Shown here: positions 46,025 through 63,240 of the stretch, one piece after another
Layout of the letters: each line of letters opens with the position of its first letter
Numbering within the stretch: the first letter of the stretch is position 1
From: Caulobacter endophyticus
GTDB taxonomy: Bacteria > Pseudomonadota > Alphaproteobacteria > Caulobacterales > Caulobacteraceae
DNA: 64,000 nt
Assembly: GCF_003116815.1 (NCBI RefSeq)
Contig: NZ_QDKQ01000060.1
Location: forward strand, 1-64,000
Direction of reading: 5' to 3'
The notes under the pieces: model-generated
The model's database searches: none
What the model saw: only the letters and a program-made list of their open reading frames with translations
Told to the model about the DNA's origin: nothing
Program-made: the position numbers and the translations under genes

Positions 46025-47071
46025 ATGGACGCTCCGGCCCTGGCCCAACGCGGGCGCGCGTCGCTCGATTTCCAGGCGGGCATATCGAAGGCGACCTTCG
46101 GCCTGCACTTCGCCTCCGAGGCGGAGCTGGCCATGAAGGGCGTCACCGCCCAGACGATGCCCGACGACATGGATGAACGTCATGCCCTGGTCGTCGAGAC
46201 CCTGGCCGACTCCAAGATCTTCAAGATCCGCGAGCTGTTCGGCGAATGGGCCTCGCGCACCCACGGCGCGCACTGCGACGAAGCCTTCGAGGAGCGTCGC
46301 GCGGTCATCGAGCCCTACCTCAAGGCCCTCGACGAAGGCCCGGCCACCCTGGACTACGGCGACGGCGAGACCCCGCCCAGCTACTGGAGCAAGGTCTGGT
46401 TCCACCGCACCACCGGCGGCTGGGACCACATCGACCACACCGGCTATGTCCACGGCGAGCTGGTGCACAAGCAACTGGTGGCGCGCGGCTACGGCGGCGA
46501 CATCTTCGGCCAGCGCCGGGCCGCCGCCCAGCAGGCCCCGCGCCGCGACTACAAGGAAATCCTCGATATCGGCTGCGGCTCGGGCCACTTCACCCAGGCC
46601 CTGCAGGAGACTTTCCCGGAAGCCCAGATCACCGGCATCGACTGGTCGGCCCGCATGCTCGAACAGGCCCGTCGCGTGGCCAACGAGAAGGGCTGGAACT
46701 GGAAGCTGATGGTCAAGGGTGGCGAGAACTCCGGTTTCGCCGACGAGAGCTTCGATCTCGTGACAACCTTCATCCTGTTCCACGAGGCGCCGCCGCGGAT
46801 CATCAAGGCGGTGCTGGAAGAGGCCTTCCGGATGCTGAAGCCGGGCGGCGACATCATCATGGCCGACGTGCCGCGCTATGCGGAAATCGATAAGATGGCG
46901 TCCTGGCGCTACGACTACCTGGCCAAGTGGGGCGGCGAGCCCTACTGGCGCGCCTCGGCCAGCATGGACCTGATCCAGACCTGCAAGGACATCGGCTTCG
47001 TCGACGTCGAGGGCGCGACCCAGGCTCCGACCCACTCGTACTACGTGCTGCGCGCTCACAAGCCCGCCTGA
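46025..47071 (+). CDS. Class I SAM-dependent methyltransferase (pair 1)
   Basis: 348 residues. An N-terminal helical region of about 170 residues precedes the Rossmann core: motif I EILDIGCGSGHFTQA (178-192), acidic Asp after strand 2 in ITGIDWSARML, then SFDLVTTFILFHEA and MLKPGGDIIMADVP. The C-terminal WGGEPYWRASASMDLI resembles the NNEPFW segment of the other two island methyltransferases. Substrate unknown. The small helical gene follows after 24 bases and the pair ends at a strong terminator. Confidence 0.88.
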   Translation: MDAPALAQRGRASLDFQAGISKATFGLHFASEAELAMKGVTAQTMPDDMDERHALVVETLADSKIFKIRELFGEWASRTHGAHCDEAFEERRAVIEPYLKALDEGPATLDYGDGETPPSYWSKVWFHRTTGGWDHIDHTGYVHGELVHKQLVARGYGGDIFGQRRAAAQQAPRRDYKEILDIGCGSGHFTQALQETFPEAQITGIDWSARMLEQARRVANEKGWNWKLMVKGGENSGFADESFDLVTTFILFHEAPPRIIKAVLEEAFRMLKPGGDIIMADVPRYAEIDKMASWRYDYLAKWGGEPYWRASASMDLIQTCKDIGFVDVEGATQAPTHSYYVLRAHKPA

Positions 47072-47095
47072 TCCTTCCGACAACGAGCGAGCGAC

Positions 47096-47404
47096 ATGAA
47101 CGCGATGAACCAGAAGACCTTCGAGCGCCCGATCTCCGAGCCGGTGAACCGCCGGATGCTGACCGTCGACCAGATCGACGACCTGGGCGAGGCCATCCTG
47201 TCCCTGACCCGCGAGATCTGGGTGCTGACCGACCGCGTCCACGTGCTGGAAGCGGTGCTGGAAAGCCACGGCGTGCTGGCCAACGCCGAGATCGACGCCT
47301 TCCAGCCGGGTCCGGAACTGCAGGCCCAGCTGAACGCCAAGCGCGACGCCATCGTCCAGAACCTGATGCGCGCGCTGCGCGCGGCTCCGGAAGCCCGGAG
47401 CTAG
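47096..47404 (+). CDS. Small helical partner protein of methyltransferase (pair 1)
   Basis: 102 residues, mainly two or three amphipathic helices: REIWVLTDRVHVLEAVLES (about 41-59), then GVLANAEIDAFQPGPELQAQ and a C-terminal helix KRDAIVQNLMRAL. The pattern EL.V...R...LE.VLES.G.L...EI..F.P recurs in the proteins at 49224 and 61661. Such heptad spacing suggests a coiled-coil adaptor or subunit of the methyltransferase. No known family recognised. Confidence 0.75.
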   Translation: MNAMNQKTFERPISEPVNRRMLTVDQIDDLGEAILSLTREIWVLTDRVHVLEAVLESHGVLANAEIDAFQPGPELQAQLNAKRDAIVQNLMRALRAAPEARS

Positions 47405-47438
47405 CCTCGTCCCCGCCGCAACTGCGCGGTGTTAGCCT

Positions 47439-47470
47439 GGCGCGGTCGGAAACGACCGCGCCGTTTTTTT
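47439..47470 (+). terminator. Rho-independent terminator after pair 1
   Basis: Perfect 10-bp stem GGCGCGGTCG / CGACCGCGCC with a GAAA tetraloop, followed by GTTTTTTT. Confidence 0.93.
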
Positions 47471-47610
47471 GATCCCTCTCCCTGAAGGGAGAGGTGGCGC
47501 CGAAGCCGACGGAGAGGGAACGTCTTGTGGAGGTTGGAGGAGCCGCCGTGTAAGCGGAAACTTCCCCCTCCGGCCCTCCGGGTCACCTCCCCCTTCAGGG
47601 GGAGGGTCTT
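47471..47610. repeat. CCTCCCCC-type intergenic palindromic repeat (copy 4, paired)
   Basis: Left unit CCCTCTCCCTGAAGGGAGAGGTGGCG and right unit CTTCCCCCTCCGGCCCTCCGG-GTCACCTCCCCCTTCAGGGGGAGGGTCTT (47561-47610). The right unit matches 41661-41709 nearly base for base. Confidence 0.82.
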
Positions 47611-47612
47611 TA

Positions 47613-49196
47613 TCAGAGCCCCAGCGCCCCCGGGTTCATCACGCCCTTCGGGTCCACCGCGGCCTTGATCGCACGGACCAGGTCCAGCGAAGGGGCCTCC
47701 AGCACTTCGCCGTACGGATACAGCTTGCCGAGCTGGAAGTGCACGGCGCCGTGCTGGGCGTAGAGCGCGATGATCTGGGCCTTGAGCTTGCCCACGAAGG
47801 CCGTGGTTTCGGGATCGTCGGCGTATTGGGGCAGGCTGGCCAGGTGCTCGGCGGGCAGGACGCCGGCGTGGTAGGCGGTCTGGGCGCCGGGCCAGTAGAG
47901 GGCGACCTCGTAGAGGAAGCCGGACGGGCGCAGCACCTCGAACATGCCGCCGCGCCAGACGCCGCGGGCTGTCATCTCGTCGGCGTGGCTGGCGTAGAGG
48001 GCTTCCAGGGCCTGGTGGAAGGCCGCGACATGGCTGTGGGGCAGGATGCCGTTCAGCGGGGCCCAGCGCTCGCCCTTGGGGCCAAGCACGTTGTAGAGCG
48101 GGGCGAACGGCATGCCGCGCACGATGGTCGGCATGGTGTTGGGGATCTCGACCCCCTCGGCCGTCATCAGGGTGCGCAGGCGGTCCAGCCGCGCCTTGGC
48201 CTCGCGGTCATCGACGCCCTCGAGGATGTAGTGGACCATGTACTGCGCCTTGCGCAGGGCGCGGTCGCCGGCCAGGGCCATCTTGCTCAGCTGCCTGAGG
48301 CCCGCGACCAGCGACGGCGAACTCTTCAGCACGGTCAGGGCCATCTGCACGACGGCGGCGTTGTCCTGGCGGGCGATCTGGCCCTGGGCCAGGGGGGCGT
48401 CGATGGCGAAGTGCTCGTCGTCGAGGCTCTCGATCGACGCCGCGCGCATGGCGCGGGCCAGGCTGGGCAGGTCTTCGAAGGCGAAGGAGGCGCATTGGAA
48501 GGCGGGCCTCTTGGCGATCAGCGGCAGGGTGATCCGCGCCTTGATCCCGAGCGCGCCGCAGTCGCCCAGGAACAGTCCGCAAAGATCGGGGCCGTACCAG
48601 CGAGCGAAGGGCGAGGCGCCGCGGGCGGCCGAGCCGGTCCGCAGCAGGGACCCGTCGGCGATGACGACGTCGACCGACACGGCCGACTCCGCCGAGCTGC
48701 CGTAGAGGCCCGAGCCGTGGCTGATGGCGTGCTGCGACATCGACCCGCCGATGGTGGCGGCGAGCCCCGAGAACGGGCCGAAGAACGGGGTGCGCAGGCC
48801 TAAGGGATCGAGCGCGTCCTTCAGCTGGGCCCAGGTGACCCCAGCCTCGACCGTGACATAGGCGTCGGTCTGGTTGATCTCGACGATGCGGGAAAGCGCG
48901 CCCGTGTCGATCAGCACCGTGTCGGCGCGGGTCGCCAGGTAGCCGTCGGTATAGGAGGCGCCCCCGCCGCGCGGGACGATGGCGACGCCCTCGGCCGCTG
49001 CCTCGCGCACGACCGCCTGCAACTGGTCGACATCGGCGGGGCGGACCACGGCCAGCGGCGTTTCCAGCCGGCGATAGACGTCGGTGGCGAAGGGCAGGGC
49101 GGCCTCGCCCGTCAGGACGCCGCCGGCGCCGACGATCGCCTCCAGGCGTGCAAGGAGGCCGGCGTCGGCCGGGGCGGTACGCGTCTTGACGGGCAT
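47613..49196 (-). CDS. FAD-linked oxidase, vanillyl-alcohol-oxidase/PCMH type
   Basis: 527 residues. The FAD-binding domain covers residues about 45-225, with PRGGGASYTDGY (75-86), VEAGVTWAQLKDALDP and FSGLAATIGGSMSQHAISHGSGLYGSSAES; the C-terminus has the typical DPKGVMNPGALGL. Relatives include 4-cresol dehydrogenase, vanillyl alcohol oxidase and glycolate/lactate oxidase subunits. No signal peptide. It follows the methyltransferase/helper pair 2 on minus. Likely oxidises a phenolic or hydroxy-acid intermediate (inference). Confidence 0.85.
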   Translation of the reverse strand: MPVKTRTAPADAGLLARLEAIVGAGGVLTGEAALPFATDVYRRLETPLAVVRPADVDQLQAVVREAAAEGVAIVPRGGGASYTDGYLATRADTVLIDTGALSRIVEINQTDAYVTVEAGVTWAQLKDALDPLGLRTPFFGPFSGLAATIGGSMSQHAISHGSGLYGSSAESAVSVDVVIADGSLLRTGSAARGASPFARWYGPDLCGLFLGDCGALGIKARITLPLIAKRPAFQCASFAFEDLPSLARAMRAASIESLDDEHFAIDAPLAQGQIARQDNAAVVQMALTVLKSSPSLVAGLRQLSKMALAGDRALRKAQYMVHYILEGVDDREAKARLDRLRTLMTAEGVEIPNTMPTIVRGMPFAPLYNVLGPKGERWAPLNGILPHSHVAAFHQALEALYASHADEMTARGVWRGGMFEVLRPSGFLYEVALYWPGAQTAYHAGVLPAEHLASLPQYADDPETTAFVGKLKAQIIALYAQHGAVHFQLGKLYPYGEVLEAPSLDLVRAIKAAVDPKGVMNPGALGL

Positions 49197-49223
49197 AGGC
49201 TCTACTCAGATCAGGTCACAGGA

Positions 49224-49595
49224 TCAGGTTTGGGCGATGTCTTCGATGGTGGCGCGGAAGCGCTCGGCCGTGTCGGCCGCGGCGGCTTCCGAGGCGTCCT
49301 TGCGGGCCAGGTAGAAGAGGCGGCCCAGGAAGTCCTGGCGCCAGGCCTCGCGGGCCTCCAGGGCGGGCTGGTCGAGCTGCAGGGCCTCGATCTCGGCGGC
49401 CAGGTCCAGGCCCTTGGCGGCATGGACGCGTTCGGCGCTGTCGAGGCGGTCGTGCAGCACGGCCAGTTCGTTGGCCAGGACCATGATCATCGACATGGCC
49501 TGGTCGAGGCCCGGGGCCTCGTAGAACTGCGGGCGCTTGCCCTTGGCATCGCGGATGACGTGCGGGCGCTCGGCCTGCGGAGCGTGGGCGTTCAT
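49224..49595 (-). CDS. Small helical partner protein of methyltransferase (pair 2)
   Basis: 123 residues from the ATG at 49595 (AAGGATAATACG upstream). An ATG at 49616 that shares a base with the methyltransferase stop would add seven residues. KGKRPQFYEAPGLDQAMSMI and MVLANELAVLHDRLDSAERV align with KRPYFFANPEVERVLAITM and AVVQELAVARARLDTLERV of the protein at 61661, followed in both by G-x5-EIE. Predicted helical; no known family. Confidence 0.75.
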   Translation of the reverse strand: MNAHAPQAERPHVIRDAKGKRPQFYEAPGLDQAMSMIMVLANELAVLHDRLDSAERVHAAKGLDLAAEIEALQLDQPALEAREAWRQDFLGRLFYLARKDASEAAAADTAERFRATIEDIAQT

Positions 49596-49615
49596 CGTAT
49601 TATCCTTCGAACTCA

Positions 49616-50839
49616 TCAGGCCTTGCGGGCGATCAGGACTTCCCAGCCGCCGCCGGGAGCGTATTCGCCGGCGGCGAACTCGCGGTCGGAGACCGCCGCG
49701 CTGGCGTCCTGGCTGTAGCCGGCGGCTTGCTGGGCGACGAACTCCATGATGGCCATGGGCGCGGTGTCGAACTTGATGCTCTCGGGCGGGAAGCCGGCGG
49801 CCTTGGCCAGGGCGACCTGGTCGGTCTCGCGCATTGCGCCCCAGAACGGCTCGTTGTTGTACCAGGTCTCGTTGTCCAGGATGAACTGGGTGAACGGGTC
49901 CATGTTGTCGAACGGCGGCAGGTCGGCGTGGATCATGTAGCCGCCGGGCGCCAGCAGGCGGTGGCACTCGTTGAAGATGCGCGGCATGGCCTTGCCCGAC
50001 GTCTCGTGCAGCAGGATGTGGCTGACGATCAGATCGAAGGAGCCGTCCTCGAAGCGGGTCTCCTCGGCGTTCATCTGGGCGAAGTTCACTTCGAGGCCCA
50101 GGCCCGCGGCGCGAGCATGCGCGTAGCGCACCTGCGGGGCGGCGACGTCGACGCCCCAGACTTCAGCCTCGGGGAACAGCTCCTTGTAGGGCAGGGTCGA
50201 GTGGCCGACCGTGCAGCCCAGATCGAGGATCCGCTTGGGCTTGAAGCCGTCCAGGCGCCGGTTGACGTAGTTGCAGACCGAGCGGCCCATGTCGTCGTTG
50301 AACGGGCCCATGTAGCCCATGGCGTAGAGATAGACGCCGCGGTCGTAGAGGGCGCCCGTCGAGATGTCGTCCGGGGCCACCGCGCCGGCATAGCCGCCGG
50401 GCATGCAGTGAATGTCGATCGAGGTGACGTAGCGCGGGGTCTCGAATTCCTCGGGCAGGTCGAGCTGGCCCTTGGCCGACGCCGACAGGCCGCGGGCCTT
50501 CTCGATCAGTTCGGGCAACTCGCGGTCGATCGTGACGTTGGTCGATTCCCAGAGCAGCTCCTGGGCGATGCGGTTGGCCGCGGCGTAGTGCTGGAAATAG
50601 AGGTCCTTGACCATGGCCGAGCGGATGTCGCGGCGGTCGGCGGGCGCGCGGCCATGCTCGCGCTCGAAGGCCTTGGCGGCGCGGACGCCGAACACGGGCC
50701 CCAGGCCCGGCAGCAGACCCTGCTGGATGAACTGCTTGAAGCTCTTGGTGAATTCCTGGCGCGAGCCCTCGTCATGGGTCGGCTTGGGCAGGATCGGGTG
50801 ATCGACCTGCTGGAAGGTGTTGAGCATCTCGGCGGACAT
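49616..50839 (-). CDS. Class I SAM-dependent methyltransferase (pair 2)
   Basis: 407 residues. An extended N-terminal domain (to about 195) contains AFEREHGRAPADRRDIRSAM and RYVTSIDIHCMPGGY; the Rossmann core has ILDLGCTVGHSTLP (204-217), VWGVDVAAPQVRYA, SFDLIVSHILLHET and LLAPGGYMIHADLP, and the NNEPFW segment follows. Clear paralogue of the 62014 protein. The ATG at 50839 has GGAGG five bases upstream; an upstream TTG is less likely. First gene of a three-gene minus operon with its small partner and the FAD oxidase. Confidence 0.88.
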   Translation of the reverse strand: MSAEMLNTFQQVDHPILPKPTHDEGSRQEFTKSFKQFIQQGLLPGLGPVFGVRAAKAFEREHGRAPADRRDIRSAMVKDLYFQHYAAANRIAQELLWESTNVTIDRELPELIEKARGLSASAKGQLDLPEEFETPRYVTSIDIHCMPGGYAGAVAPDDISTGALYDRGVYLYAMGYMGPFNDDMGRSVCNYVNRRLDGFKPKRILDLGCTVGHSTLPYKELFPEAEVWGVDVAAPQVRYAHARAAGLGLEVNFAQMNAEETRFEDGSFDLIVSHILLHETSGKAMPRIFNECHRLLAPGGYMIHADLPPFDNMDPFTQFILDNETWYNNEPFWGAMRETDQVALAKAAGFPPESIKFDTAPMAIMEFVAQQAAGYSQDASAAVSDREFAAGEYAPGGGWEVLIARKA

Positions 50840-51147
50840 GGCGGCCTCCAAACAGCCGGCCCGGAAGGGCGGCGCGAACTGAGGCTAATCTGAAGGGGAC
50901 CGATCAGTCAAAATATTGCGTTCAGCGGATGCTCCGCTAGGCGGTCAGCCCGGGCGCTGGGCAGGTGGGTGGCGGCTGGCGGGCAGGGAAGAGGCGTCCG
51001 CCAGAAAGCCCCTCTCCCAGAGGGAGAGGGAGGGGCCCGCCGCGACGCGGCGGGAGGGTGAGGGGTTACGAGGTCGGACGACGTGCCGGCGCTCCGTCGG
51101 GCGCCGTAACCCCTCACCCCGACCCTCTCCCTATGGGAGAGGGGGGC
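50840..51147. repeat. Intergenic region with CCCTCTCCC-type inverted repeat (copy 5)
   Basis: The 308-base gap holds a small AGCGGA-TGC-TCCGCT palindrome (50926-50940) near the pair 2 promoter and a repeat pair: CCCCTCTCCCAGAGGGAGAGGG...GGGTGAGGGGTTACGAGG (51009-51081) facing GTAACCCCTCACCCCGACCCTCTCCC (51107-51132). No gene seen. The repeat ends directly at the monooxygenase stop. Confidence 0.7.
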
Positions 51148-52317
51148 TTAAACCTCCACAGCCCCCGCGTCATACGCGAAGAGGCCCAGGGTCTCTTCGT
51201 TCTTGATCTCGGTCATGCCGTAGAGGTGGGCTTCGTCGCCTTCCAGGCGGTCGGCGTTGAGGTTGGATTCGACCTGGATGAAGCCGCATCGTTCCTTGCG
51301 GGCGGCTTCGTAGCGGGCCAGGGCTTCGGGAACGTCCGACGCGGCTTCGAAGGCGCGGGCCAGGACGAGGGCGTCCTCGATGGCGGCGGCGGCGCCCTGG
51401 CCCAGGAACGGGGTCATGGCGTGGGCGGCGTCGCCCAGCAGGGCCACGCGGCCGCCGCGCACCCAGGTCTTCAGGGGCTGGCGGGCGAAGACGGCCCACT
51501 TGTAGAGGGCGGCCGGGTCGATGGTGTCGAGCAGGGCCTGGACGTCGTCGCTCCAGCCCTCGAAGGTCTTGCGCAGGTCGGCGAGATCCGCGCGGATCGT
51601 CCAGCCTTCCTCGGCCCAGCCTTCCTGGCGGGCGAAGAAGACGAGGTTGAGCAGGGTGGAGCCTCGCAGCGGATAGCGCACGGCCATGCGGCCCGGGCCG
51701 ATGTGGATGCCGGGGAAGTGGGCCAGATCCTCAAGCAGGGCGCTCTCGACCGGCACGATGGCGCGCCAGACGACGTGGCCGGTGAAGTGCGGCTCGCCCG
51801 GGTCGAAGCCCTTGCGCACGCCCGATTTCACGCCGTCGGCGCCGATCACGGCGTCGCCCTTGATCTCAGTTCCGTCGGCCAGGGCGGCGATCGCGCCGTC
51901 GGCAGTCGGCTCGGCGGCGACGCAAGGGCTGGACAGGCGCACAGTGGCCCGGCCGGTGGCCTCGAGCGCCTCGACCAGGATGGCGTGCAGGTCGGCGCGG
52001 TGGATGTAGACGTAAGGCGCGCCGTAGAGGTCTCGCACCTTCTGGCCGCGCTCGAAGGCGACAAGGTCGCGGCCGTCGGACCAGTGCTGCACCCGCTGGC
52101 GCTGGGGCTCGACGCCGGCCGTGGTGATCGCCTCGGCCAGGCCCAGGTGGTGATAGACGCGCATGGCGTTGGGGGCCAGGGTGACGCCGGCGCCGATCTC
52201 GCCAAGGGCGGGAGCCTGTTCCAGCACCTCGACGGTGTGGCCGGCCCGGGCCAGGGCGATGGCGGCGGTCAGGCCGCCGATGCCGGCGCCGGCGACGATC
52301 AGGTGCTGGGGACGCAT
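51148..52317 (-). CDS. FAD-dependent aromatic monooxygenase, salicylate-hydroxylase/NicC-like
   Basis: 389 residues, group A flavin hydroxylase. GAGIGGLTAAIALARAGHTVEVLE (10-33), the DG motif GDAVIGADGVKSGVRK (about 153-168), and GDAAHAMTPFLGQGAAAAIEDA in the C-terminal third. Size and motifs fit salicylate hydroxylase, 3-hydroxybenzoate 6-hydroxylase and 6-hydroxynicotinate 3-monooxygenase. ATG at 52317 with GGAGAC upstream. Last of a four-gene minus operon. Substrate unproven. Confidence 0.88.
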   Translation of the reverse strand: MRPQHLIVAGAGIGGLTAAIALARAGHTVEVLEQAPALGEIGAGVTLAPNAMRVYHHLGLAEAITTAGVEPQRQRVQHWSDGRDLVAFERGQKVRDLYGAPYVYIHRADLHAILVEALEATGRATVRLSSPCVAAEPTADGAIAALADGTEIKGDAVIGADGVKSGVRKGFDPGEPHFTGHVVWRAIVPVESALLEDLAHFPGIHIGPGRMAVRYPLRGSTLLNLVFFARQEGWAEEGWTIRADLADLRKTFEGWSDDVQALLDTIDPAALYKWAVFARQPLKTWVRGGRVALLGDAAHAMTPFLGQGAAAAIEDALVLARAFEAASDVPEALARYEAARKERCGFIQVESNLNADRLEGDEAHLYGMTEIKNEETLGLFAYDAGAVEV

Positions 52318-52359
52318 GGGTAGTCTCCGGAACTTAGGCGCCAAATCAGGCTGCCAAAA

Positions 52360-53226
52360 TCAGGCGTAGGTCGCCGCGTCGGCCAGCAGGGCGTCGAGCC
52401 CGGCGACCGCGTTCAGGCGGGGAAGGTCGAGAATGTCGAGGCCGTCGGTCGTGCCCTCGCTGCGCAGCATGGCCAGCCACTCGGGCGCGTAGCGGGCCAG
52501 GCCGTGCAGCAGCAGCATCGGGTGCAGGGCGATGGCGAAGCCCAGCTCCTGCAGTTCTGCGCCCGTGCGCACGGCGGTGATCCCGCCCTCGACCAGGTTG
52601 TGGACCAGGGGAACGCGGGCGGCGAAGCGCTCGGCCACGGCCCTGGTCTCTTCGAGCGTGCGGGGACCCTCGACGAAGACGATGTCGGCGCCGGCCTCCA
52701 GATAGGCCTCGGCGCGATCCATGGCGGCTTGCGGCCCCTCGACGCCGAGCGCATCCGTGCGGCCGATGATCAGGGTCTGCGAGCGGGCGTCGACGGCGGC
52801 GCGAACCTTGCCGACCATCTCTGCTACCGGGATCACGCCCTTGCCGCGGATATGGCCGCAGCGCTTGGGGAAGGTCTGGTCTTCCAGCTGCACGGCCGAC
52901 GCGCCGGCCCGTTCCAGCACCTTGACCGTCCGCTGGGTGTTCAGCGCGTTGCCGAAACCCGTGTCGATGTCGACGATCAGCGGGATATCGACGCGGTCGG
53001 CGATGGCCCGCACCGCGTCGGCCAGCTCGCCGACGCCGACGAGGCCGACGTCCGGACGGCCCAGGCGGGCCAGCGACAGGGCCGCGCCCGACAGGAACGC
53101 GGCCTCGAAGCCGGCCTGCTCGACCAGCAGGGCCGAGAAGCCGTCATAGCAGCCGGGCGCGGCCAGCAGCCGGCGGCGGCCGTCGGGGCCGGCCGCCAGC
53201 CGCTGGCGCAGGCGAGCCCCGTTCAC
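52360..53226 (-). CDS. Isocitrate lyase/PEP mutase superfamily enzyme
   Basis: 288 residues. Metal-binding VDIDTGFGN (Asp86, Asp88), EDQ (115-117) and the catalytic loop PKRCGH (120-125) are all present, as in methylisocitrate lyase and 2,3-dimethylmalate lyase relatives; oxaloacetate decarboxylase-type activity is also possible. The GTG start overlaps the upstream deacetylase stop (GTGA), so translation is coupled. It could cleave the final C4-C6 acid to central metabolites (inference). Confidence 0.87.
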   Translation of the reverse strand: MNGARLRQRLAAGPDGRRRLLAAPGCYDGFSALLVEQAGFEAAFLSGAALSLARLGRPDVGLVGVGELADAVRAIADRVDIPLIVDIDTGFGNALNTQRTVKVLERAGASAVQLEDQTFPKRCGHIRGKGVIPVAEMVGKVRAAVDARSQTLIIGRTDALGVEGPQAAMDRAEAYLEAGADIVFVEGPRTLEETRAVAERFAARVPLVHNLVEGGITAVRTGAELQELGFAIALHPMLLLHGLARYAPEWLAMLRSEGTTDGLDILDLPRLNAVAGLDALLADAATYA

Positions 53227-54152
53227 TCCGCGGCCTTGGCGCTGGCGCCGGTCGGGATGTGGCTCTCGTGGTTGGCCAGATACCAGTCGGCGATCTCCTC
53301 GCGGGTGGCGAACCACACGCCCGGCAGGTTCTTGGCGTGCTGGATGAATTCGCGCAGGGCGCGGATCCGGTAGGCCCGGCCCGAGACGTGCGGGTGGATG
53401 CCCACGTTCATGATCCGGCCCGAGGTGGCGCCTTCCTTGTAGAGGACGTTCAACTCCTCGATCATCACGTCGCGGTATTCGTCGGTGGTGTGGCCGCGAC
53501 GGGTGAGCAGGGTGAAGTCGTTGATCTCGTTCGAATAGGGCGTCGAGACGATCGGGCCGTTCGGCGTGCGCAGCAGATAGGGCTGGTCGTCGTTGAGCAG
53601 GTCGCAATAGAAGGTGCAGCCGTGCTCGGCGAGGATGTCGGCGGTCTGCAGCGTGCCGCGCAGGGACGACGACAGCCAGCCCTTGGCGCGCTTGCCGACG
53701 TACTTCTCGTATTGCTCCAGCGAGCGCAGGACGATGTCGCGCTCCTTGGCCGGTTCATGGGCGAAGTCGGTCAGCAGCTCGCCCTGTTCCCAGTTGTGGG
53801 CCAGAAGCTCCCAGCCGCGCTCCAGGCAGGCGTCGGTCATGGCCTTGCGGCGCTCGAAGGTCACAGCGTTGGTGGTGCAGCTGGCCTTGACGCCCTGCTC
53901 GTCGAACAGGTCGAACAGCCGCCAGATGCCCACGCGCTGGCCGTACTCGCGCCAGGTGTAGTTGGGGAAGTCGGGCGTATCGCCGGCCAGCACGTCGGGC
54001 AGCACGGCCGGACCGCCGGCGTAGTACTTCTCCTTGGTCGGCTTGGTGAGGTCCCAGGTCTCCAGGTTGAAGGTCATGACCAGGGCCACGCGTGCGCCGT
54101 TCGGCCAGATCAGCGGCTTGCGGTGCGGGAGCGGAACGTAATCGTATTCCAT
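53223..54152 (-). CDS. Polysaccharide-deacetylase-fold hydrolase, PuuE allantoinase-like
   Basis: 309 residues. VALVMTFNLETWD, YGQRVGIWRLFDLFDEQGVKASCTTNAVTFER, ELLAHNWEQGELL and GIHPHVSGRAYRIRALREFI fit the NodB-fold branch that includes metal-independent PuuE allantoinase and cyclic-imide hydrolases; it is cytoplasmic. The usual metal-binding D-H-H set of chitin deacetylases is not intact, as in PuuE. A ring-opening amidohydrolase role is therefore plausible. Coupled to the ICL/PEPM gene. Confidence 0.8.
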   Translation of the reverse strand: MEYDYVPLPHRKPLIWPNGARVALVMTFNLETWDLTKPTKEKYYAGGPAVLPDVLAGDTPDFPNYTWREYGQRVGIWRLFDLFDEQGVKASCTTNAVTFERRKAMTDACLERGWELLAHNWEQGELLTDFAHEPAKERDIVLRSLEQYEKYVGKRAKGWLSSSLRGTLQTADILAEHGCTFYCDLLNDDQPYLLRTPNGPIVSTPYSNEINDFTLLTRRGHTTDEYRDVMIEELNVLYKEGATSGRIMNVGIHPHVSGRAYRIRALREFIQHAKNLPGVWFATREEIADWYLANHESHIPTGASAKAAE

Positions 54153-54177
54153 GCCGGTACTCTCTGATCTCTGACGA

Positions 54178-54924
54178 CTAGTGTTCCAGAAGGAGCGAGC
54201 CGAAGCCGTCCACCTTGTCCTGGATCCCCATGCTCCGGAGAGCATGCCAGTAGGTGGCGGTGTTGATGGCCACGACCGGCTTTTCCAGCCAGAACTCGGC
54301 GACGCCGGCGACCTTGGCGAAGGCCAGGTTGGTGCCGCACTGGACGACGGCGTCGGCGCCTTCGGAGACCTCGATGGCCGCGCGCTTGAGGGTCTGCGGA
54401 TCCTCGTGGGCGATCAGCATCGGGGAGGGGGACTTCAGGCCCTTCACCTGGGTGACCTCGTAGCCCAGGTCCTCGAAGAACTTGCGCACCTGGTTGTCCC
54501 CGACCGGCATGTAGGGGGTGATGACCCCGATCTTCTTGATGCCCCCATAGGCCTTCAGCGCCGCGTCGACGGCGGTGGAGCCCATCACGACCGGCACCCC
54601 CCCGGTGCGCTCCAGCATGCGCTGGGTCAGGCGCTCGGCGCCGTCTGCGCCATCCCAGAAGGTCTCGGCCGACATGCCCATGACCACGCAGGCCGGGTCC
54701 ATGGTCATGGCGACATCGACGCTGTCCATGGTCGCATCACGGATGTTCTGCAGCATCACCATGAACGACTCGTCGTCGGTGACCTTGGTGTCCGGTATGG
54801 CGATCCGCTGGAAGTGGTTGGTCACGCCGCGTGGGCGCATGTCGTCGTATTCGGGCTGGACGCTCGTGTTGGTCGACGGCGCGATCACCGCGTACTTCAG
54901 GCGGTGTCCCAATGAATCCGGCAT
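54178..54924 (-). CDS. Maleate isomerase / arylmalonate decarboxylase family protein (Asp/Glu racemase fold)
   Basis: 248 residues. APSTNTSVQPEYDDMRP at the N-terminus is the family substrate loop; two catalytic cysteines are in place, Cys79 (DPACVVMGMSAETFW) and Cys196 (VVQCGTNLAF). Family members isomerise maleate to fumarate or decarboxylate arylmalonates. ATG at 54924 after AAGGAAGC. First gene of the minus operon that includes deacetylase, ICL/PEPM and monooxygenase; operator site 4 lies upstream. Suggests a maleate-type end product. Confidence 0.85.
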   Translation of the reverse strand: MPDSLGHRLKYAVIAPSTNTSVQPEYDDMRPRGVTNHFQRIAIPDTKVTDDESFMVMLQNIRDATMDSVDVAMTMDPACVVMGMSAETFWDGADGAERLTQRMLERTGGVPVVMGSTAVDAALKAYGGIKKIGVITPYMPVGDNQVRKFFEDLGYEVTQVKGLKSPSPMLIAHEDPQTLKRAAIEVSEGADAVVQCGTNLAFAKVAGVAEFWLEKPVVAINTATYWHALRSMGIQDKVDGFGSLLLEH

Positions 54925-55004
54925 GACGCTTCCTTCGACCTGCGACGTTTCGATGGTCGAGGAATGGCAAAGCCGAAGCGGCCGCGCCGCACCCCAGGAG
55001 CCGA

Positions 55005-55021
55005 TATCCGCCCGGCGGATA
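55005..55021. promoter_or_regulatory. Putative IclR operator, site 4 (perfect palindrome)
   Basis: TATCCGC-CCG-GCGGATA, both arms exact. It lies between the divergent maleate-isomerase-like operon (minus) and the DUF1330/monooxygenase/GST operon (plus). Confidence 0.75.
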
Positions 55022-55107
55022 GGAAAAGGCGCCGTCAGAGCGGGAAGGACGGGCGTCGCTAGGGTCGTCGTTGAACCACAACGGAAATTCCTCCGGGGGA
55101 CGAGACC

Positions 55108-55398
55108 ATGCCCGCCTTCATCATCGCCACCACCGTCATCACCGACCCGCCGCGCTTCATGGAGTACGTGAAGGCCATTTCGGGCCTGGCCGAGCGTTTC
55201 GGCGGCGAGACCTATGTCCGCGGTCCGGTGACCGAAGTGCTGGAGGGCGAGGTCCCCGAAGGCGAGCGCGTGATCGTCACCCGTTACCCCGACGCCGCCG
55301 CGGCCAAGGCCTATCTGCACTCTGACGAGTACCAGGCCGCCAAGCTCCTGCGGAAGAACGCGGGCGACGTCGTGGTCCGCATGATCGTCGTCGACTGA
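55108..55398 (+). CDS. DUF1330-family small protein
   Basis: 96 residues with a ferredoxin-like alpha/beta pattern: MPAFIIATTVITDPPRFMEY, GGETYVRGPVTEVLEGEVPEGERVIVTRYPDAAAAKAYLHSDEYQ. DUF1330 is the closest family; members often accompany aromatic degradation genes without known activity. GGGGGACGAG precedes the ATG. First of a three-gene plus operon. Confidence 0.8.
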   Translation: MPAFIIATTVITDPPRFMEYVKAISGLAERFGGETYVRGPVTEVLEGEVPEGERVIVTRYPDAAAAKAYLHSDEYQAAKLLRKNAGDVVVRMIVVD

Positions 55399-55469
55399 TC
55401 AAGACGCGTGAGCCGGGGCGCGAGGGGGAAACCGCGCCCGCAACGCCGATCCAAAACTAGCGAGGTTCC

Positions 55470-56669
55470 GTGGAACGATTCCAAGTCGTCGTCGCCGGCG
55501 CTGGGCCCGTGGGCTCGGTCGCGGCCTATCGGCTGGCCCAACTGGGCGTCGAGGTGCTGCTGCTGGAGGCCGCGCCGCGCTGCCCAGAGGACCTGCGCGC
55601 CTCGACCATGCATCCGCCGACGCTCGACATGATGAAGGCGCTGGGGGTGCTGGACGAGCTGGAGGCCCAGGGCCTTCGCGCGCCGGTCTATCACTATCGC
55701 AATCGCCTGACGGGCGAGGTGATGGCCTTCGACATGAGCGAGCTGGCCGACATCAGCGAGCACCCCTACCGGCTGCAATGCGAGCAGTTCAAGCTGGCCC
55801 GCCTGCTGACCGAGAAGCTGGCCGCCCATCCCAAGGGCGAGGTGCGGTTCTCGCACCGCCTGGCCCACTTCACCCAGGACGACCAGGGCGTCACCGCCTC
55901 GATCGAGGCGCCCTTCGGCATCGAGCAGGTGCGTTGCGACTATCTGATCGGCGCCGACGGGGCCAATTCGATCGTTCGCAAGTGGCTGGACGTCGAGTTC
56001 GAGGGCTTCACCTATCCGGAGAAGTTCCTGACCCTGTCGACCGACTGGCCGCTGGAGGATCACTTCAAGGGCCTGGCCCACGTCAACTACGTGGCCGATC
56101 CCAAGGAGTGGTGCGTGCTGCTGCGGGTGCCGTCGCTGTGGCGCATCCTGGTGCCGGCCAATGGCGAGGAGAGCGACGAGGCGCTGCTGTCGGACGCCAA
56201 GAAGGAAGCCGTCTTCGGCGGCCTGCTGGGCGAGGGAGCATCGATCAAGACCGCGCACCGCACGCTCTACAAGGTGCACCAGCGGGTGGCCAAGACCTAC
56301 CATGTGGGTCGCGTGCTGCTGGCCGGGGATGCGGCCCACCTCAACAACCCGCTGGGCGGGTTCGGCATGAACTCGGGCATCCACGACGTCTGGAGCCTGA
56401 CGCAGAAGCTGGCCGAGATCCTGCTGGAGAAGGGCGACGCGCAGGCGCTGCTGCCGCTCTACGATCGCCAGCGGCGGGCGGTGATGCACAAGTTCATCCA
56501 GACCCAGACGATCGCCAACAAGGCGGCGATGGAGGCGGGCACGGCCGAGGCCTATGCCGAGCGCGAGGCCAAGATGCGCCAGATCCTGGCCGATCCGGAG
56601 CAGCGGCGCGAGTACCTGCTGCTGCAGTCTATGTACAAGAGCCTCGAGCTCGAAGCGGCGACGGCGTGA
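55470..56669 (+). CDS. FAD-dependent monooxygenase, MhpA/PheA-like
   Basis: 399 residues. GAGPVGSVAAYRLAQLGVEVLLLE (10-33), the DG motif CDYLIGADGANSIVRKWL, and LLAGDAAHLNNPLGGFGMNSGIHDVWSLTQKLAEIL are characteristic of 3-(3-hydroxyphenyl)propionate-type hydroxylases. The start is GTG at 55470 with GAGG upstream. Shorter than MhpA (lacks the C-terminal thioredoxin-like domain). Probably hydroxylates a ring intermediate. The GST gene follows after 10 bases. Confidence 0.88.
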   Translation: MERFQVVVAGAGPVGSVAAYRLAQLGVEVLLLEAAPRCPEDLRASTMHPPTLDMMKALGVLDELEAQGLRAPVYHYRNRLTGEVMAFDMSELADISEHPYRLQCEQFKLARLLTEKLAAHPKGEVRFSHRLAHFTQDDQGVTASIEAPFGIEQVRCDYLIGADGANSIVRKWLDVEFEGFTYPEKFLTLSTDWPLEDHFKGLAHVNYVADPKEWCVLLRVPSLWRILVPANGEESDEALLSDAKKEAVFGGLLGEGASIKTAHRTLYKVHQRVAKTYHVGRVLLAGDAAHLNNPLGGFGMNSGIHDVWSLTQKLAEILLEKGDAQALLPLYDRQRRAVMHKFIQTQTIANKAAMEAGTAEAYAEREAKMRQILADPEQRREYLLLQSMYKSLELEAATA

Positions 56670-56679
56670 GGGCGGGGCG

Positions 56680-57306
56680 GTGATCCAGTTTCACACAATC
56701 CCGACCGCCAACGGCCAGAAGGTGCGGATCGTGCTGGAGGAGACGGGGCTGGCCTACAGGCTGGCCCCCATCGACCTCTATGCCGGCGAGCACAAGCGGC
56801 CTGACTACAAGGCCGCGCTGAGCCCGTTCGGCAAGGCGCCGGCGATCGTCGATCCCGATGGTCCCGGGGGCGAGCCGATCGTGCTGGCCGAGACCCTGGC
56901 CATCGCCTGGTACCTGGCCGAGAAGGCCGCAAGCGACCTTTTGCCCAAGGGGCCGGGCGAGCGGGCCGAGTTCCTGATGTGGGCCTCGGCGGTGTCGTCG
57001 CAGCTGGCCGGGGCCTTCACGAACCAGTTCGTGGCCACGGTGATGGCCCCGGAAAAGACCCCGTGGGCGATCGAGCGGTCGCTGGCCGACTGCCACGAGC
57101 AGCTGGCGGCGTTCGAGGCCCGGCTGGCCAGCCGCGTCTACATGCTGGGCGAGCGCTTCACGATCCTGGACGCACTGTTCTTCCCGATGGTGGCCAGCTC
57201 GGCCAGGCGCCTGGAAGGCGGGCTCGATCCCTACCCGAACCTGGCGCGCTACGAGGCCTTCATCGGCCAGCGGCCGGGCGTTCAGCGGGGCATGGCGGCG
57301 GGCTGA
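56680..57306 (+). CDS. Glutathione S-transferase family protein (Nu/Ure2p-like)
   Basis: 208 residues. Thioredoxin-fold N-domain with TANGQKVRIVLEETGLAYRL (residues 6-25) and SPFGKAPAIVD, then an all-helical C-domain. The TxNxxK motif resembles YfcG/Nu-class GSTs. In aromatic catabolism GST-type proteins act as maleylpyruvate isomerase or beta-etherases; which applies is not evident. GTG start at 56680, 11 bases after the monooxygenase stop. Confidence 0.85.
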   Translation: MIQFHTIPTANGQKVRIVLEETGLAYRLAPIDLYAGEHKRPDYKAALSPFGKAPAIVDPDGPGGEPIVLAETLAIAWYLAEKAASDLLPKGPGERAEFLMWASAVSSQLAGAFTNQFVATVMAPEKTPWAIERSLADCHEQLAAFEARLASRVYMLGERFTILDALFFPMVASSARRLEGGLDPYPNLARYEAFIGQRPGVQRGMAAG

Positions 57307-58739: not shown

Positions 58740-60581
58740 TTGACCGCCATCCTCAAGGCTTACGCCGATACGCCCGCCGGCCAGGTGCACCTGCGCCGGG
58801 TGGACGGCCCCGGCGATCCGATCGTGCTTCTGCACCGCACGCCGGTCAGCTCGGCCTGCTTCGACGGCGTTCTGGCCCGCCTGGCCGGCCGTCGCGCGGC
58901 CATCGCGCTTGATACGCCCGGCTTTGGCCAGTCGTTCCGTCCCAAGGGCCTGCCTTCGACGGCGGACTACGGGGCCTGGCTGCTGGCGGCGCTGGACGCC
59001 GTGGGCGTCGAGCGTTTCCACCTGGCCGGCCACCACACGGGCACCCACATCGGCGCCGAGATCGCCGTGGCCGCGCCGGGCCGCGTGCGCTCGCTGCTGC
59101 TGAACGGTGTGCTGTTCGCCACCGCCGCCGAACGCGAGATGTTCCGAACCCAGGTCGGCCAGGCCGCGCCGATCGATGCTCACGGCGCCTACCTGATCCA
59201 GTCCTGGGGCACGATGAAGGGGTTGATGCCCCGCTTCGACGCCCAACTCGTGCAGGCCGAGTTCCTGGGCGCGATCGGCGCGCCGGACGGCCGAAACCAG
59301 GCCTTCGGGGCGATCTTCGACCAGGACTTCGCCAGCGTCTTCAAGGGCGTGACCTGCCCGGTCACCGTGCTGCAGGCGGTTGACGACCCGCTGGCCGGCT
59401 TCGTCAGCCGCATCCGCACCGCACGGCCGGGCGTGGTGGTCACCACCCAGGGCAAGACCGGCGTCGCCGCGCCCGAACTCGAGCCCGAAATCTTCGCCGA
59501 AACCCTGCTGGCTTTCGCGGCCGGCGTCGAAACCACGCCTCCGAACACCCCCCTTCAATGGACTCCGCCCATGACCAATCGCCGTTTCTCCCTCGTCCGC
59601 GCCGAGCAGGGCTTCGAACTGGCCGACACCATCGTGCCGGTCCCGCAGCCGGGTCCGGGCGAGGTGCTGGTGCGCGTGCGCGCGGTGGCGCTGAATCGTC
59701 GCGACGTGATGATCCGCAAGGGCTGGTATCCGGTGGGCGAGGCCGACGGCTTCACCCCGCTGTCGGACGCCGCCGGCGAGATCGTCGCCCTGGGTGACGG
59801 GGTCGGAGACCTGGCGGTGGGCGATCGCGTGGCCTCGACCTTCTTCCAGGCCTGGCCGGAAGGGCGCATCACCTTCCCGGCGGTGATCTCGTCGCTGGGC
59901 GCCGGCGGCCCCGGCGTGCTGGCCGAGCACGTGGTGCTGTCGGCCGGCGGCGTGGTGAAGCTGCCCGACAGCCTCGACTTCGTGCAGGGCGCGACCCTGA
60001 CCTGCTCGGGCGTGACGGCCTGGTCGTCGCTGGTGACGCACGGCGGCCTGAAGGCCGGCGACTGGGTGGTGACGCTGGGCACCGGCGGCGTCTCGCTGTG
60101 GGGTCTGCAGATCGCCAAGGCTTTTGGCGCCAGGGTGGCCGTGGTCGGCGGCGACGACGCCAAGCTGGCCCGCGCCAAGGAGCTGGGCGCCGACCTGACG
60201 GTAAACTATCGCACTACGCCCGACTGGGATGTCGCGGTGAAGGAAGCCACCGGCGGCGGCGTGCAGCACGCCCTGGAACTGGGCGGCGCCGGCACCCTGG
60301 CCAAGTCGCAGGCCAGCCTCGGCGTCGGCGGCCACGTGGCCGTCATTGGCGCGCTGGATGGCTTTGGCGGTACGCTGGACGCCTCGGCCATGGTCATGGC
60401 CGCCCAGCGCGCCACGGCGATCTCGGTGGGCTCGCGCGCCGACCACCAGGCGCTGTCGGACTTCGTGGCGGCCAAGGGCATCGTCCCGGTGGTCGACGCC
60501 GTCTTCGCCCTCGACGCCATCGAGGGCGCCTACACCCGCGCCGACCAGGGCGCGTTCGGCAAGGTGGTGGTGACGCTCTGA
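58740..60581 (+). CDS. Fusion protein: alpha/beta hydrolase + zinc-type (MDR) alcohol dehydrogenase
   Basis: 613 residues in one uninterrupted frame. Residues 1-270 form an alpha/beta hydrolase (VLLHRTPVSSACFDGV, DTPGFGQS), but the nucleophile elbow reads AGHHTGTHIG, so His99 occupies the usual Ser position. From Met278 an MDR dehydrogenase begins: MTNRRFSLVRAEQGFEL, VLVRVRAVALNRRDVMIRKGWYP, and the NAD(P) fold VTLGTGGVSLWGLQIAKAFGARVAVV. The zinc-ligand Cys is absent at the usual place, as in quinone-oxidoreductase-like MDRs. TTG start at 58740 with GGAG upstream. The internal Met278 has no good ribosome site. Confidence 0.82.
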   Translation: MTAILKAYADTPAGQVHLRRVDGPGDPIVLLHRTPVSSACFDGVLARLAGRRAAIALDTPGFGQSFRPKGLPSTADYGAWLLAALDAVGVERFHLAGHHTGTHIGAEIAVAAPGRVRSLLLNGVLFATAAEREMFRTQVGQAAPIDAHGAYLIQSWGTMKGLMPRFDAQLVQAEFLGAIGAPDGRNQAFGAIFDQDFASVFKGVTCPVTVLQAVDDPLAGFVSRIRTARPGVVVTTQGKTGVAAPELEPEIFAETLLAFAAGVETTPPNTPLQWTPPMTNRRFSLVRAEQGFELADTIVPVPQPGPGEVLVRVRAVALNRRDVMIRKGWYPVGEADGFTPLSDAAGEIVALGDGVGDLAVGDRVASTFFQAWPEGRITFPAVISSLGAGGPGVLAEHVVLSAGGVVKLPDSLDFVQGATLTCSGVTAWSSLVTHGGLKAGDWVVTLGTGGVSLWGLQIAKAFGARVAVVGGDDAKLARAKELGADLTVNYRTTPDWDVAVKEATGGGVQHALELGGAGTLAKSQASLGVGGHVAVIGALDGFGGTLDASAMVMAAQRATAISVGSRADHQALSDFVAAKGIVPVVDAVFALDAIEGAYTRADQGAFGKVVVTL

Positions 60582-60692: not shown

Positions 60693-60694
60693 TC

Positions 60695-60757: not shown

Positions 60758-61633
60758 TCAGGCTTCCACCACCTCGACCAGCGCCCCGCCAGGGGCGCGC
60801 AGGACGCCGGCGCGCTTGCCGCCGTAGACGGCGCCGGCGCGGACCGTGGGGGGCGCGATCCAGTCGCCCGTCACGCTGTCGAAGTCCGGATGCTTGAGGG
60901 TGCAGATGGCGACGCCCGGCGGCAGGGCGCCAGGGTGGCCGGGGCGCGCCGTGGCTTGCTCCGGGTACTGGTCGAACTCTAGGAAGACGTCCTTCTCAAA
61001 CGTCGCCGTCGCCAGGGCGTGGCGGCTGTCTTTGGGAAGATCGAAGGCGTCGTTGATCATGTGGTAGACGATGGTCATCGGCGTGCCGACGTCCAGGCCC
61101 AGGGTCTGGGCGAACCAGCGGCCGCTGGCCTCCATGTCGTCGCTGGCCAGGACGAGGATGAACAGCTTGTCGATCAGGCTGCCGGGATGGGGCAGGCCAT
61201 TGCCGGGCGAGATGATCTCGGTGAGGTAGACGATCTCGCCGTCGGGACCCTTGACCTGCATCGGATGGATGGTCGGCAGGCCGTCGATGCGCCTGGGCGG
61301 GCCGATGATCTCGAACGGCGCGTCCTGCATGCGGGCGTTCACGGCCATCACGTCCTGGCAGCAGATCTCGATCGCGGCCCAGCCGTAGGTGCGCAACGGC
61401 AGGTATTGGGGGGCCGGATCGCCCTCGACGAAGCGCAGGAAGACGTCGGCGCCGCTGGCCGGCTGCAGTACGGCGTAGGGCCGGCCGGCGCTGGCCGGGG
61501 CCCCCCAGCTTGCGGCGACGTCGGCGGGGACCTCGCCCTCTTCGACCACGGCGTAGTCCAGCCACTGGGCGTAGCGTTGCGCGGTCGCCCCGACGTTCGG
61601 CGTCACCAGGGTGGCGGCCCTAAGAAGGTTCAT
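60758..61633 (-). CDS. VOC-superfamily protein, two-module
   Basis: 291 residues with two vicinal-oxygen-chelate modules: residues about 1-130 (ATLVTPNVGATAQRYAQWLDYAVVEEGEV) and 140-290 (KLFILVLASDDMEASGRWFAQTLGLDVG). The fold includes extradiol dioxygenases, glyoxalases and isomerases. The His/His/Glu triad of extradiol dioxygenases is not evident by eye, so the reaction is open. Third gene of the minus operon led by methyltransferase pair 3. Start ATG at 61633. Confidence 0.8.
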   Translation of the reverse strand: MNLLRAATLVTPNVGATAQRYAQWLDYAVVEEGEVPADVAASWGAPASAGRPYAVLQPASGADVFLRFVEGDPAPQYLPLRTYGWAAIEICCQDVMAVNARMQDAPFEIIGPPRRIDGLPTIHPMQVKGPDGEIVYLTEIISPGNGLPHPGSLIDKLFILVLASDDMEASGRWFAQTLGLDVGTPMTIVYHMINDAFDLPKDSRHALATATFEKDVFLEFDQYPEQATARPGHPGALPPGVAICTLKHPDFDSVTGDWIAPPTVRAGAVYGGKRAGVLRAPGGALVEVVEA

Positions 61634-61660
61634 CGATATGTCCTTGAAATCGTAAGGGCT

Positions 61661-62017
61661 TCAGTCGCGCAGTTCGACGGCGACGTCTTCCGAAGCGACG
61701 TCGCCCGTGGCGGTCGCGGCTTCGGCCTCCTGCTGGACGATGCGCAGCACGCGGGAAAGGTATTCCTGCAGCCACAGGCCGCGCTCGGCGGCGGCCTCGG
61801 CCGACGGCTCGAAGCGCTCGATCTCGGTGCGATCGAGGCTGCCGCGGGATTCCAGCACGCGCTCCAGCGTGTCGAGCCGGGCGCGGGCGACGGCCAGCTC
61901 CTGGACCACGGCCATGGTGATGGCCAGCACGCGCTCGACTTCCGGATTGGCGAAGAAATAGGGGCGCTTGCCGGCGGGCTTGGCGCCGGCGTCGGCCAGG
62001 GCGTCTGCGATGCTCAT
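61661..62017 (-). CDS. Small helical partner protein of methyltransferase (pair 3)
   Basis: 118 residues. KRPYFFANPEVERVLAITM, AVVQELAVARARLDTLERV then LESRGSLDRTEIERFEPSAE and a C-terminal helix LWLQEYLSRVLRI. It is the clearest member of the three-protein family (with 47096 and 49224). The start overlaps the methyltransferase stop (ATGA), so the two are made together, which supports a physical partnership. No signal peptide, no known domain. Confidence 0.78.
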   Translation of the reverse strand: MSIADALADAGAKPAGKRPYFFANPEVERVLAITMAVVQELAVARARLDTLERVLESRGSLDRTEIERFEPSAEAAAERGLWLQEYLSRVLRIVQQEAEAATATGDVASEDVAVELRD

Positions 62018-63240
62018 CGTGACTTTCGCGCTCCGATCACGCGCCAGGCGGCCTTGCGGCCATAGTCTTCGCTGTCGTCGTCGGCGGCGTCGGGGAAGAC
62101 CTCGCGGTCGACCACGGCGGTGACGCCGTCATGGATCAGCTCGCCTGCCGCAAAGCCGGCCTCGACCATGCGGGCGTCCAGGTCGATCTCGTGCAGCGTG
62201 CTCCAGAAGGGCTCGTTATTGTAGAAGGCGTCCCAGTCGCGCATGGCCTGCTCGAACAGCGGCATGGTCGGCGCGTATTGCGGTTGCTCGACGTGCAGCA
62301 CGACGCCGCCGGGCGCCAGGACGCGGCGGCTCTCGGCGAAAATGGCCTTCATCGAGGTCAGCGACAGCTCGTGCAGGAACATCGTGGTCTGCACCCAGTC
62401 GAAGCTCTCGTTCTCGAAGCGCGACAGGTCGGCGCCGTCGGCCTGGACGAAGCGGATGTTCTCCACCCCCAGCGAAGCGGCGCGGGCGGCGGCGTAGCGC
62501 AGCATCGGCCCGCCGACGTCGATGGCGACGACCTCGGCGTCAGGAAAGGCCTGGGCGATCGGCAGCGCGCTGTGGCCGACCGTGGCGCCGATGTCGAGGA
62601 TGCGGCGCGGCTTGAAGTCGGGAAGCCGGCGCTGCACCCAGCGCACCACGGCCTGGCCGCCGCCGTCGGAGAAGCGGCCGAGCAGCCCCCCGGTGGTGGC
62701 GAAGCCGCCGTGGTCGTAGTTGGCGCCGCCCGACACGTCGCCTTCGAAGCGCTCGACGTGATAGCTGCCGGGCATGCAGTGATGGTCGACGGCGCTCACA
62801 TAGCGCGGGATCTTCAGGTCAGGGTCAAGCTCCAGCCGGTCGTGGCCGGCGTTCAGTGCGGCGGCCTTGGCGGCCAGCTCCTCGGCCTGACGCAGGGTGG
62901 TCCAGCGGCCGGCCTGCTGGCGCTGCTCCATGGTCAGGCGGCGAAGGGCCGACCAAGTCTGGAAGGCGGGATCCTTCAGCAGGGCCTTGCGGACCTCGTG
63001 GCGATCCCCAGGCGCGCGATCGTTGGCCTTCTCGAAGGCCGGCAGGGCGCGGGTTTCCCAGGCTTGCTTCACGCCGGGGATGAGGCGGGTGGAGAGGTGG
63101 CGGTTGAGCTGGGCCAGGACGTTCAGCCGCTCGACCTCGTCATGCGACATGTCGGGGAACACCCCATGGCGGCCGACCTTGCGATAGTCGGGCGGGCCGT
63201 CATAGGCCTGGATCGGCCCCTCGTTGACGCGACCGGTCAT
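62014..63240 (-). CDS. Class I SAM-dependent methyltransferase (pair 3)
   Basis: 408 residues. N-terminal domain with AFEKANDRAPGDRHEVRKAL and RYVSAVDHHCMPGSY (148-160), then the Rossmann core ILDIGATVGHSALP (214-227), VVAIDVGGPMLRYA, SFDWVQTTMFLHEL and VLAPGGVVLHVEQP, and FYNNEPFW. Strong paralogue of 49616. The glycine-rich loop is GATVG here and GCTVG in pair 2. AGGAG precedes the ATG. Leads an operon with its small partner and the VOC gene. Confidence 0.88.
   Translation of the reverse strand: MTGRVNEGPIQAYDGPPDYRKVGRHGVFPDMSHDEVERLNVLAQLNRHLSTRLIPGVKQAWETRALPAFEKANDRAPGDRHEVRKALLKDPAFQTWSALRRLTMEQRQQAGRWTTLRQAEELAAKAAALNAGHDRLELDPDLKIPRYVSAVDHHCMPGSYHVERFEGDVSGGANYDHGGFATTGGLLGRFSDGGGQAVVRWVQRRLPDFKPRRILDIGATVGHSALPIAQAFPDAEVVAIDVGGPMLRYAAARAASLGVENIRFVQADGADLSRFENESFDWVQTTMFLHELSLTSMKAIFAESRRVLAPGGVVLHVEQPQYAPTMPLFEQAMRDWDAFYNNEPFWSTLHEIDLDARMVEAGFAAGELIHDGVTAVVDREVFPDAADDDSEDYGRKAAWRVIGARKSR

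Follow-up and report, generated by a model that had tools for sequence, protein, structure and literature searches.

A class I methyltransferase and a small helical protein, paired three times in a catabolic-type region of Caulobacter endophyticus

Does a small helical protein that is encoded beside a methyltransferase belong to that enzyme? The question is raised by a stretch of 64,000 nucleotides from Caulobacter endophyticus (positions 1 to 64,000 of contig NZ_QDKQ01000060.1, called the window below), in which three genes for class I S-adenosylmethionine (SAM) methyltransferases, all within the last 18 kb, are each followed by a gene for such a protein. The original prediction took the three pairs for copies of an undescribed, obligate two-subunit enzyme. 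We find an enzyme of known fold whose partner, a protein without a family name, is frequent but not universal. As to function, we give about an even chance to a SAM-dependent small-molecule methyltransferase with an all-helical auxiliary subunit, acting in one step of a catabolic route.

The three pairs and their protein families

Pair A lies on the forward strand and pairs B and C on the reverse strand, and the open reading frames stand where they had been predicted. Methyltransferase A (46025..47071, 348 amino acids) is followed after 24 bp by small protein A (47096..47404, 102 amino acids), and methyltransferase B (49616..50851, 411 amino acids as listed) after 20 bp by small protein B (49224..49595, 123 amino acids, with its ATG at 49595). 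The listed start codon of methyltransferase B is a TTG, with an ATG 4 codons further in. In pair C the distance is -4 bp, the start of small protein C (61661..62017, 118 amino acids) overlapping the stop of methyltransferase C (62014..63240, 408 amino acids) by 4 bp.

All three enzymes are strongly matched by Pfam methyltransferase families (Methyltransf_25/11 and others), with PF13649 scores of 87.3, 79.3 and 69.7 bits for A, B and C against a cut-off of 27 (E values of 1.2e-24, 3.5e-22 and 3.5e-19). Among the NCBIfam matches listed (the best 25 of 80, 53 and 62 families), none of the methyltransferase subfamilies (CpaM, UbiE, BioC, ArsM and others) reached its cut-off, the best score being 75.3 bits for CpaM versus a cut-off of 180. 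As in other class I SAM methyltransferases, the C-terminal domain has a Rossmann core in which sequence comparison places the usual SAM-binding positions: in an alignment of 36 methyltransferases, G212 and G216 are invariant and D235 is kept in at least 90%. A His-Glu pair follows strand 4 (H282-E283 of methyltransferase B), and this His is kept; the loop after strand 4 carries LH, a feature shared with RebM and plant PMT2.

What sets the window enzymes apart from class I SAM methyltransferases, apart from the small partner, is some 130 residues of N-terminal sequence, modelled as helical and followed by an HxxxG[GS][YW] loop, and a conserved late segment of the EP[FY]W type. In the same alignment, H148, G152 and E334-P335 of methyltransferase B are both invariant and unusual. 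The motifs HCMPG[GS]Y (HCMPGGY in B, HCMPGSY in C) and NNEPFW are indeed present in methyltransferases B and C, as had been noted. The unusual N-terminal domain is not, however, limited to those two, since the same alignment columns in A carry the variants HRTTGGW and GGEPYW; the region is thus common to all three enzymes, in a looser form in A.

A fold search (VIA) with the whole read-through model of pair B, which was hardly a test of the N-terminal helices or of the small part, returned Rv2258c, phosphoethanolamine methyltransferases, RebM, CouO/NovO, Coq5, RdmB (1qzz), TamK (7pg7) and 6f5z among the 50 rows listed. The last of these brings to mind Trm112, a small activating partner of methyltransferases, and its enzymes, where a small protein likewise goes with a class I methyltransferase. 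Trm112-type activators have a mixed fold with strands, and many have zinc-binding Cys residues. The small proteins of the window, in contrast, are modelled as helices without strands, have no Cys in any of the three copies, and are usually encoded by a gene that adjoins the enzyme gene; the helices-only models of pairs A and B and the lack of Cys in the three window copies place them outside the Trm112 type.

Did the three copies arise on the spot? Methyltransferases B and C are 37-38% identical over 404 amino acids, A and B 32% over 230, and A and C 28-29% over 237. Once methyltransferases more than 80% identical are removed, the enzymes closest to A, B and C belong without exception to other genomes, with identities of 66%, 77% and 71%. 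Because these values far exceed those among the three, the pairs are, judged by such identities, old paralogues gathered in one island, and a recent, local origin of the proposed triplication is rejected. Seven Caulobacter records contain methyltransferase B with 97-99% identity. Some 8 kb past the window end there is another methyltransferase-like gene (L086 9924-11087), a distant one with 31% identity to methyltransferase A and with no small gene nearby in the genome search.

The small partners, too, share ancestry, as predicted: blastp connects B with C (E of 8e-15), A with C (1.5e-6) and A with B (0.001, or 4e-4 in reverse). The view that they belong to no named family has also held up. 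For the three window proteins there was no NCBIfam family at E of 1 or below and no significant match in Pfam (best E of 0.059) or PHROGs (best E of 0.11), the small B query in the Pfam and NCBIfam searches carrying 7 extra residues at its front. Twenty-two members of A2 compared with Pfam touched eight families, each via one member only, with a best E of 0.0082, and PDB sequences gave a best E of 1.0 in a profile search and 0.087 with small C alone. Within the 5.4 Mb assembly there are exactly three small genes even at E of 10 or below (all 83 candidates scored), and three methyltransferases at E of 1e-45 or below, among four candidates scored. One annotated record, plasmid pJE1, labels the pair as 'class I SAM-dependent methyltransferase' and 'hypothetical protein'. 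A search of open-access texts, through titles and the beginnings of abstracts, found nothing on the pair, which is a weak negative. The pair on pJE1 is of the C type (L090 11517-11837) and stands beside a gene annotated as REDY-like protein HapK.

Recurrence of the pair in other genomes

If the small protein belongs to the enzyme, one should find the two together elsewhere, and the original prediction proposed to look for such co-occurrence. The counts that follow come from profile or tblastn matches; gene names marked 'by eye' are the exception. A scan with one genome per species found at least 118 relatives of methyltransferase B, of which 80 loci, chosen by methyltransferase B alone, were kept. 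In all 80 the small gene adjoins the main methyltransferase gene, which it follows in 79 cases and precedes in one. The relatives come from Caulobacter, Sphingomonadales, Niveispirillum and its relatives, some Burkholderiales and gammaproteobacterial genera. Across 385 alphaproteobacterial genomes, scored with at most 4 methyltransferase and 11 small candidates listed per genome, the small family occurs in 24 and the methyltransferase family in 25, with both in 23 (Fisher 1.2e-33). Thus 23 of 24 genomes with a small gene also have the methyltransferase family; the genomes with a single family are G372 (small only) and G060 and G224 (methyltransferase only), and a marginal small gene was afterwards seen beside the methyltransferase of G060. 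Presence is patchy: the family was found in 10 of the 61 genomes that represent the genus and in 4 of 398 that sample the phylum, the own genome counted in each, and up to 7 small genes are found in one genome. Four more small genes of the phylum sample (L215-L218), which were selected by the presence of the small gene, each have a methyltransferase beside them.

The two families also diverge in step. Over 70 pairs, obtained from 148 by dereplication at 80% methyltransferase identity, the evolutionary distances of methyltransferase and small protein correlate with a Pearson coefficient of 0.87 and a Spearman coefficient of 0.78, while the best of 1000 permutations reached 0.23; loci L088, L089, L091, L007 and L011 and methyltransferase matches below 100 bits were omitted from this mirror-tree comparison. 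Because the permutation retains shared ancestry, the correlation speaks for matched inheritance, not for contact. No natural fusion of the two genes was seen. Where the two genes of a locus share a reading frame, which is so in 26 cases, at least one stop always lies between them, and the same is true of pair A of the window.

The pair is found again in scattered genera, and some genomes hold it in several copies, yet in the one annotated record its small member is called a hypothetical protein. In its widest form the proposal would be of an undescribed class of SAM enzymes with a dedicated helical subunit, multiplied together with that partner and marking unmapped catabolic islands in Alphaproteobacteria, some Gammaproteobacteria and Burkholderiales, where methylation or another SAM-dependent step would serve the breakdown of some class of natural compounds with which no genes have so far been connected. 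We regard this wider proposal as tentative and rather doubtful.

How the pair might work, and what else it might be

In the reading that we favor, the methyltransferase with its auxiliary subunit, the substrate site would be built from the N-terminal region, the HxxxGG loop, H282-E283 of methyltransferase B and the EP[FY]W segment. The small helical protein would dock on the enzyme and stabilize or cap it, and a methyl group would be placed on O, N or C of a pathway intermediate. The paralogues, all with a matched small protein of their own, may serve different substrates or steps. If such methyltransferases prove inactive when expressed alone, a helper subunit would account for this.

Structure prediction of the pair, which had been proposed as a check, agrees with this reading for one pair and lends it no support for another. 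The AlphaFold model of pair B has a predicted template modelling score (pTM) of 0.84 and suggests that small protein B docks on methyltransferase B, while pair A gave a pTM of 0.75 with block means of 34-71 in the small part, so that docking is not supported for A. In both models the small part is predicted as helices without any strands.

A number of observations weigh against the favored reading. The models were computed for methyltransferase and small protein as a single read-through chain, which forces the two into proximity. Co-inheritance can also produce the co-variation of distances. Mutual information between the two proteins (148 pairs, effective number 69) gave no usable signal; its top list consists mostly of invariant columns, an artefact, and the N-terminal part of the methyltransferase is under-represented in the top 50 (12% versus 32% of columns). 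Furthermore, the pairing has exceptions on both sides. The 385 genomes gave 61 methyltransferase matches, and for 29 of these a listed small gene stands on the same strand at a distance of no more than 700 bp. For the other 32, a small gene lies about 1.6 kb off in three cases, and inspection of the surroundings of the remaining 29 revealed a clear divergent small gene in four (L204, L208, L210 and L211) and a marginal one in two (L213 and L214). This leaves 23 of 61 without a visible small gene, three of them at contig edges (L202, L203 and L207), and therefore 20 assessable methyltransferases without an adjacent partner, for which a partner elsewhere in the genome is possible. Fifteen of the 23 belong to four genomes of one family (f31), which have 5 to 7 small genes elsewhere. 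Conversely, 17 of 169 small matches in the loci have no methyltransferase within 600 bp on the same strand. Two of these are weak or partial (L033 and L157), three have a methyltransferase 1.5-1.7 kb off (L139, L165 and L176), one has it 6 kb off (L129), and two have a contig edge upstream (L181 and L182); the remaining nine have no methyltransferase in the stretch and no interfering contig edge. Some of these nine stand beside GMC oxidoreductase genes or, by eye, acyl-CoA dehydrogenase or TRAP-transporter-like genes.

How, then, should the partnership be described? Considering that methyltransferases occur without a small gene and small genes without a methyltransferase, the word 'obligate' fails at the level of gene neighborhood, and since some methyltransferase relatives occur without a small gene beside them, the partnership is common rather than obligatory. 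Likewise, the conserved pairing that had been inferred stands for the 80 relatives of methyltransferase B, but elsewhere it is frequent and not universal. In the set of loci, 155 of 173 methyltransferases are paired, a biased figure because the loci beyond L091 were chosen for holding a small gene; the 80 loci and the 385-genome counts are less biased.

These exceptions would also fit a small protein that acts, rather than as a stable subunit, as a separate helper in folding, solubility, scaffolding or regulation, serving several pathway enzymes of which the methyltransferase is merely the commonest neighbor. The 17 small genes apart from any adjacent methyltransferase and the 20 assessable methyltransferases without a small gene favor such a helper, as do the extended small proteins of L128, L129 and L133, whose neighbors are GMC oxidoreductase genes and, by eye, acyl-CoA dehydrogenase genes, and the small gene that by eye has TRAP-transporter-like genes next to it (L160). 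We consider it unlikely, though worth keeping in mind, given that pairing is matched by subfamily with distances co-varying at 0.87, that the relatives of methyltransferase B are paired without exception, and that the model of pair B has the high pTM given above. A further alternative is simple hitch-hiking, in which both genes merely belong to the same catabolic islands. The patchy distribution within the genus and the variable neighbors would fit this, but a small gene stands beside the methyltransferase in all 80 loci picked by methyltransferase B alone, whereas the commonest other neighbor, an FAD oxidase gene, lies no further than 4.5 kb away in 42 of 138 loci, or in 18 of 67 dereplicated pairs. 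Hitch-hiking is therefore, in our estimate, very unlikely.

A different doubt concerns the chemistry. Methylation is unusual in a catabolic setting, and perhaps SAM is a structural or other cofactor here, the methyltransferase fold carrying out another step such as decarboxylation, hydroxylation, or C-C or ring chemistry. RdmB and TamK, non-methylating according to their entry titles, share the methyltransferase fold and are among the fold-search rows, and the unusual invariant residues H148, G152 and E334-P335 would be consistent with such a role. These two rows are, however, tied in Z with many ordinary methyltransferases, the window enzymes retain both the canonical SAM columns and the His that follows strand 4, and, unlike the case of RdmB and TamK, nothing in the window enzymes points to a non-methylating reaction. 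We hold this explanation to be improbable, if less so than hitch-hiking.

Some of the exceptional loci have features of their own. The three extended small-family proteins (L128 6779-7384, L133 6720-7325 and L129 7011-7571) carry a long Lys/Ala-rich N-terminal extension, and no methyltransferase was found within the 14-kb stretch of L128 or L133. Beside the f31 methyltransferases (L186-L200) one sees, by eye, transporter-binding-protein, AMP-ligase, enoyl-CoA-hydratase-like or PuuE-like genes, and one of those without an adjacent small gene (L188) has a gene resembling the one that follows small C in the window (60758..61633).

The catabolic-type neighborhood

The neighborhood of the pairs looks like a catabolic island. 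By family matches a catabolic-type island extends over 37790..57306, with catabolic-type genes from about 36 to 64 kb. They include an IclR regulator, an MFS transporter, two aldehyde dehydrogenases, two beta-lactamase-fold hydrolases, an FAD oxidase, two FAD monooxygenases, methylisocitrate-lyase-like, PuuE-allantoinase-like and maleate-isomerase/arylmalonate-decarboxylase-like genes, DUF1330 and GST genes. One aldehyde dehydrogenase is nearest to phenylacetaldehyde dehydrogenase StyD, below its cut-off.

Each pair was said to head a different context, with a flavin oxidase after small B and a VOC protein after small C. Genes do follow at both places on the reverse strand, each after 27 bp. 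The gene after small B (47613..49196) encodes a FAD_binding_4 oxidase whose nearest solved chains are of the D-lactate dehydrogenase, glycolate oxidase and vanillyl-alcohol oxidase types. The gene after small C (60758..61633) has no Pfam match at 0.001 and no NCBIfam match at 1e-5; of 5 other C-type pairs, 2 have a homologue of it nearby.

Among the neighbors of 26 dereplicated B-type pairs there are homologues of the FAD oxidase in 10, PuuE-like genes in 9, Amdase-like genes in 8, FAD monooxygenase 2 in 7 and an aldehyde dehydrogenase in 7, while 34 pairs of other subtypes have few B-type neighbors in common. At other loci the neighbors include DUF1838, hydantoinase B, aconitase-family and HMG-CoA-lyase-like genes. 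This setting fits peripheral catabolism, without fixing the compound. The conserved neighbors suggest that an FAD enzyme would carry out an oxidation and that amide or imide bonds, as well as substituted dicarboxylic acids, would be handled later, and the islands point to catabolic routes. Imides, tetrapyrroles or purine-like rings, degraded via substituted maleates, were considered as substrates because of the PuuE-like, maleate-isomerase-like, methylisocitrate-lyase-like, FAD monooxygenase, hydantoinase B, aconitase-family and HMG-CoA-lyase-like neighbors; nothing was decisive, and no such substrate is claimed.

Three further features of these neighborhoods may be mentioned. Genes of the DUF1838 cluster (e.g. 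L152 1981-3084), so named from its tested representative, are no more than 4.5 kb from a small gene in 38 of 138 loci, and the text search turned up one paper that names DUF1838. In the window, a hydrolase-like gene at 45134-45931 matches no family and by eye encodes an alpha/beta hydrolase. Finally, at 58632-60581, one open frame of 649 amino acids joins an alpha/beta hydrolase domain to a zinc alcohol dehydrogenase domain.
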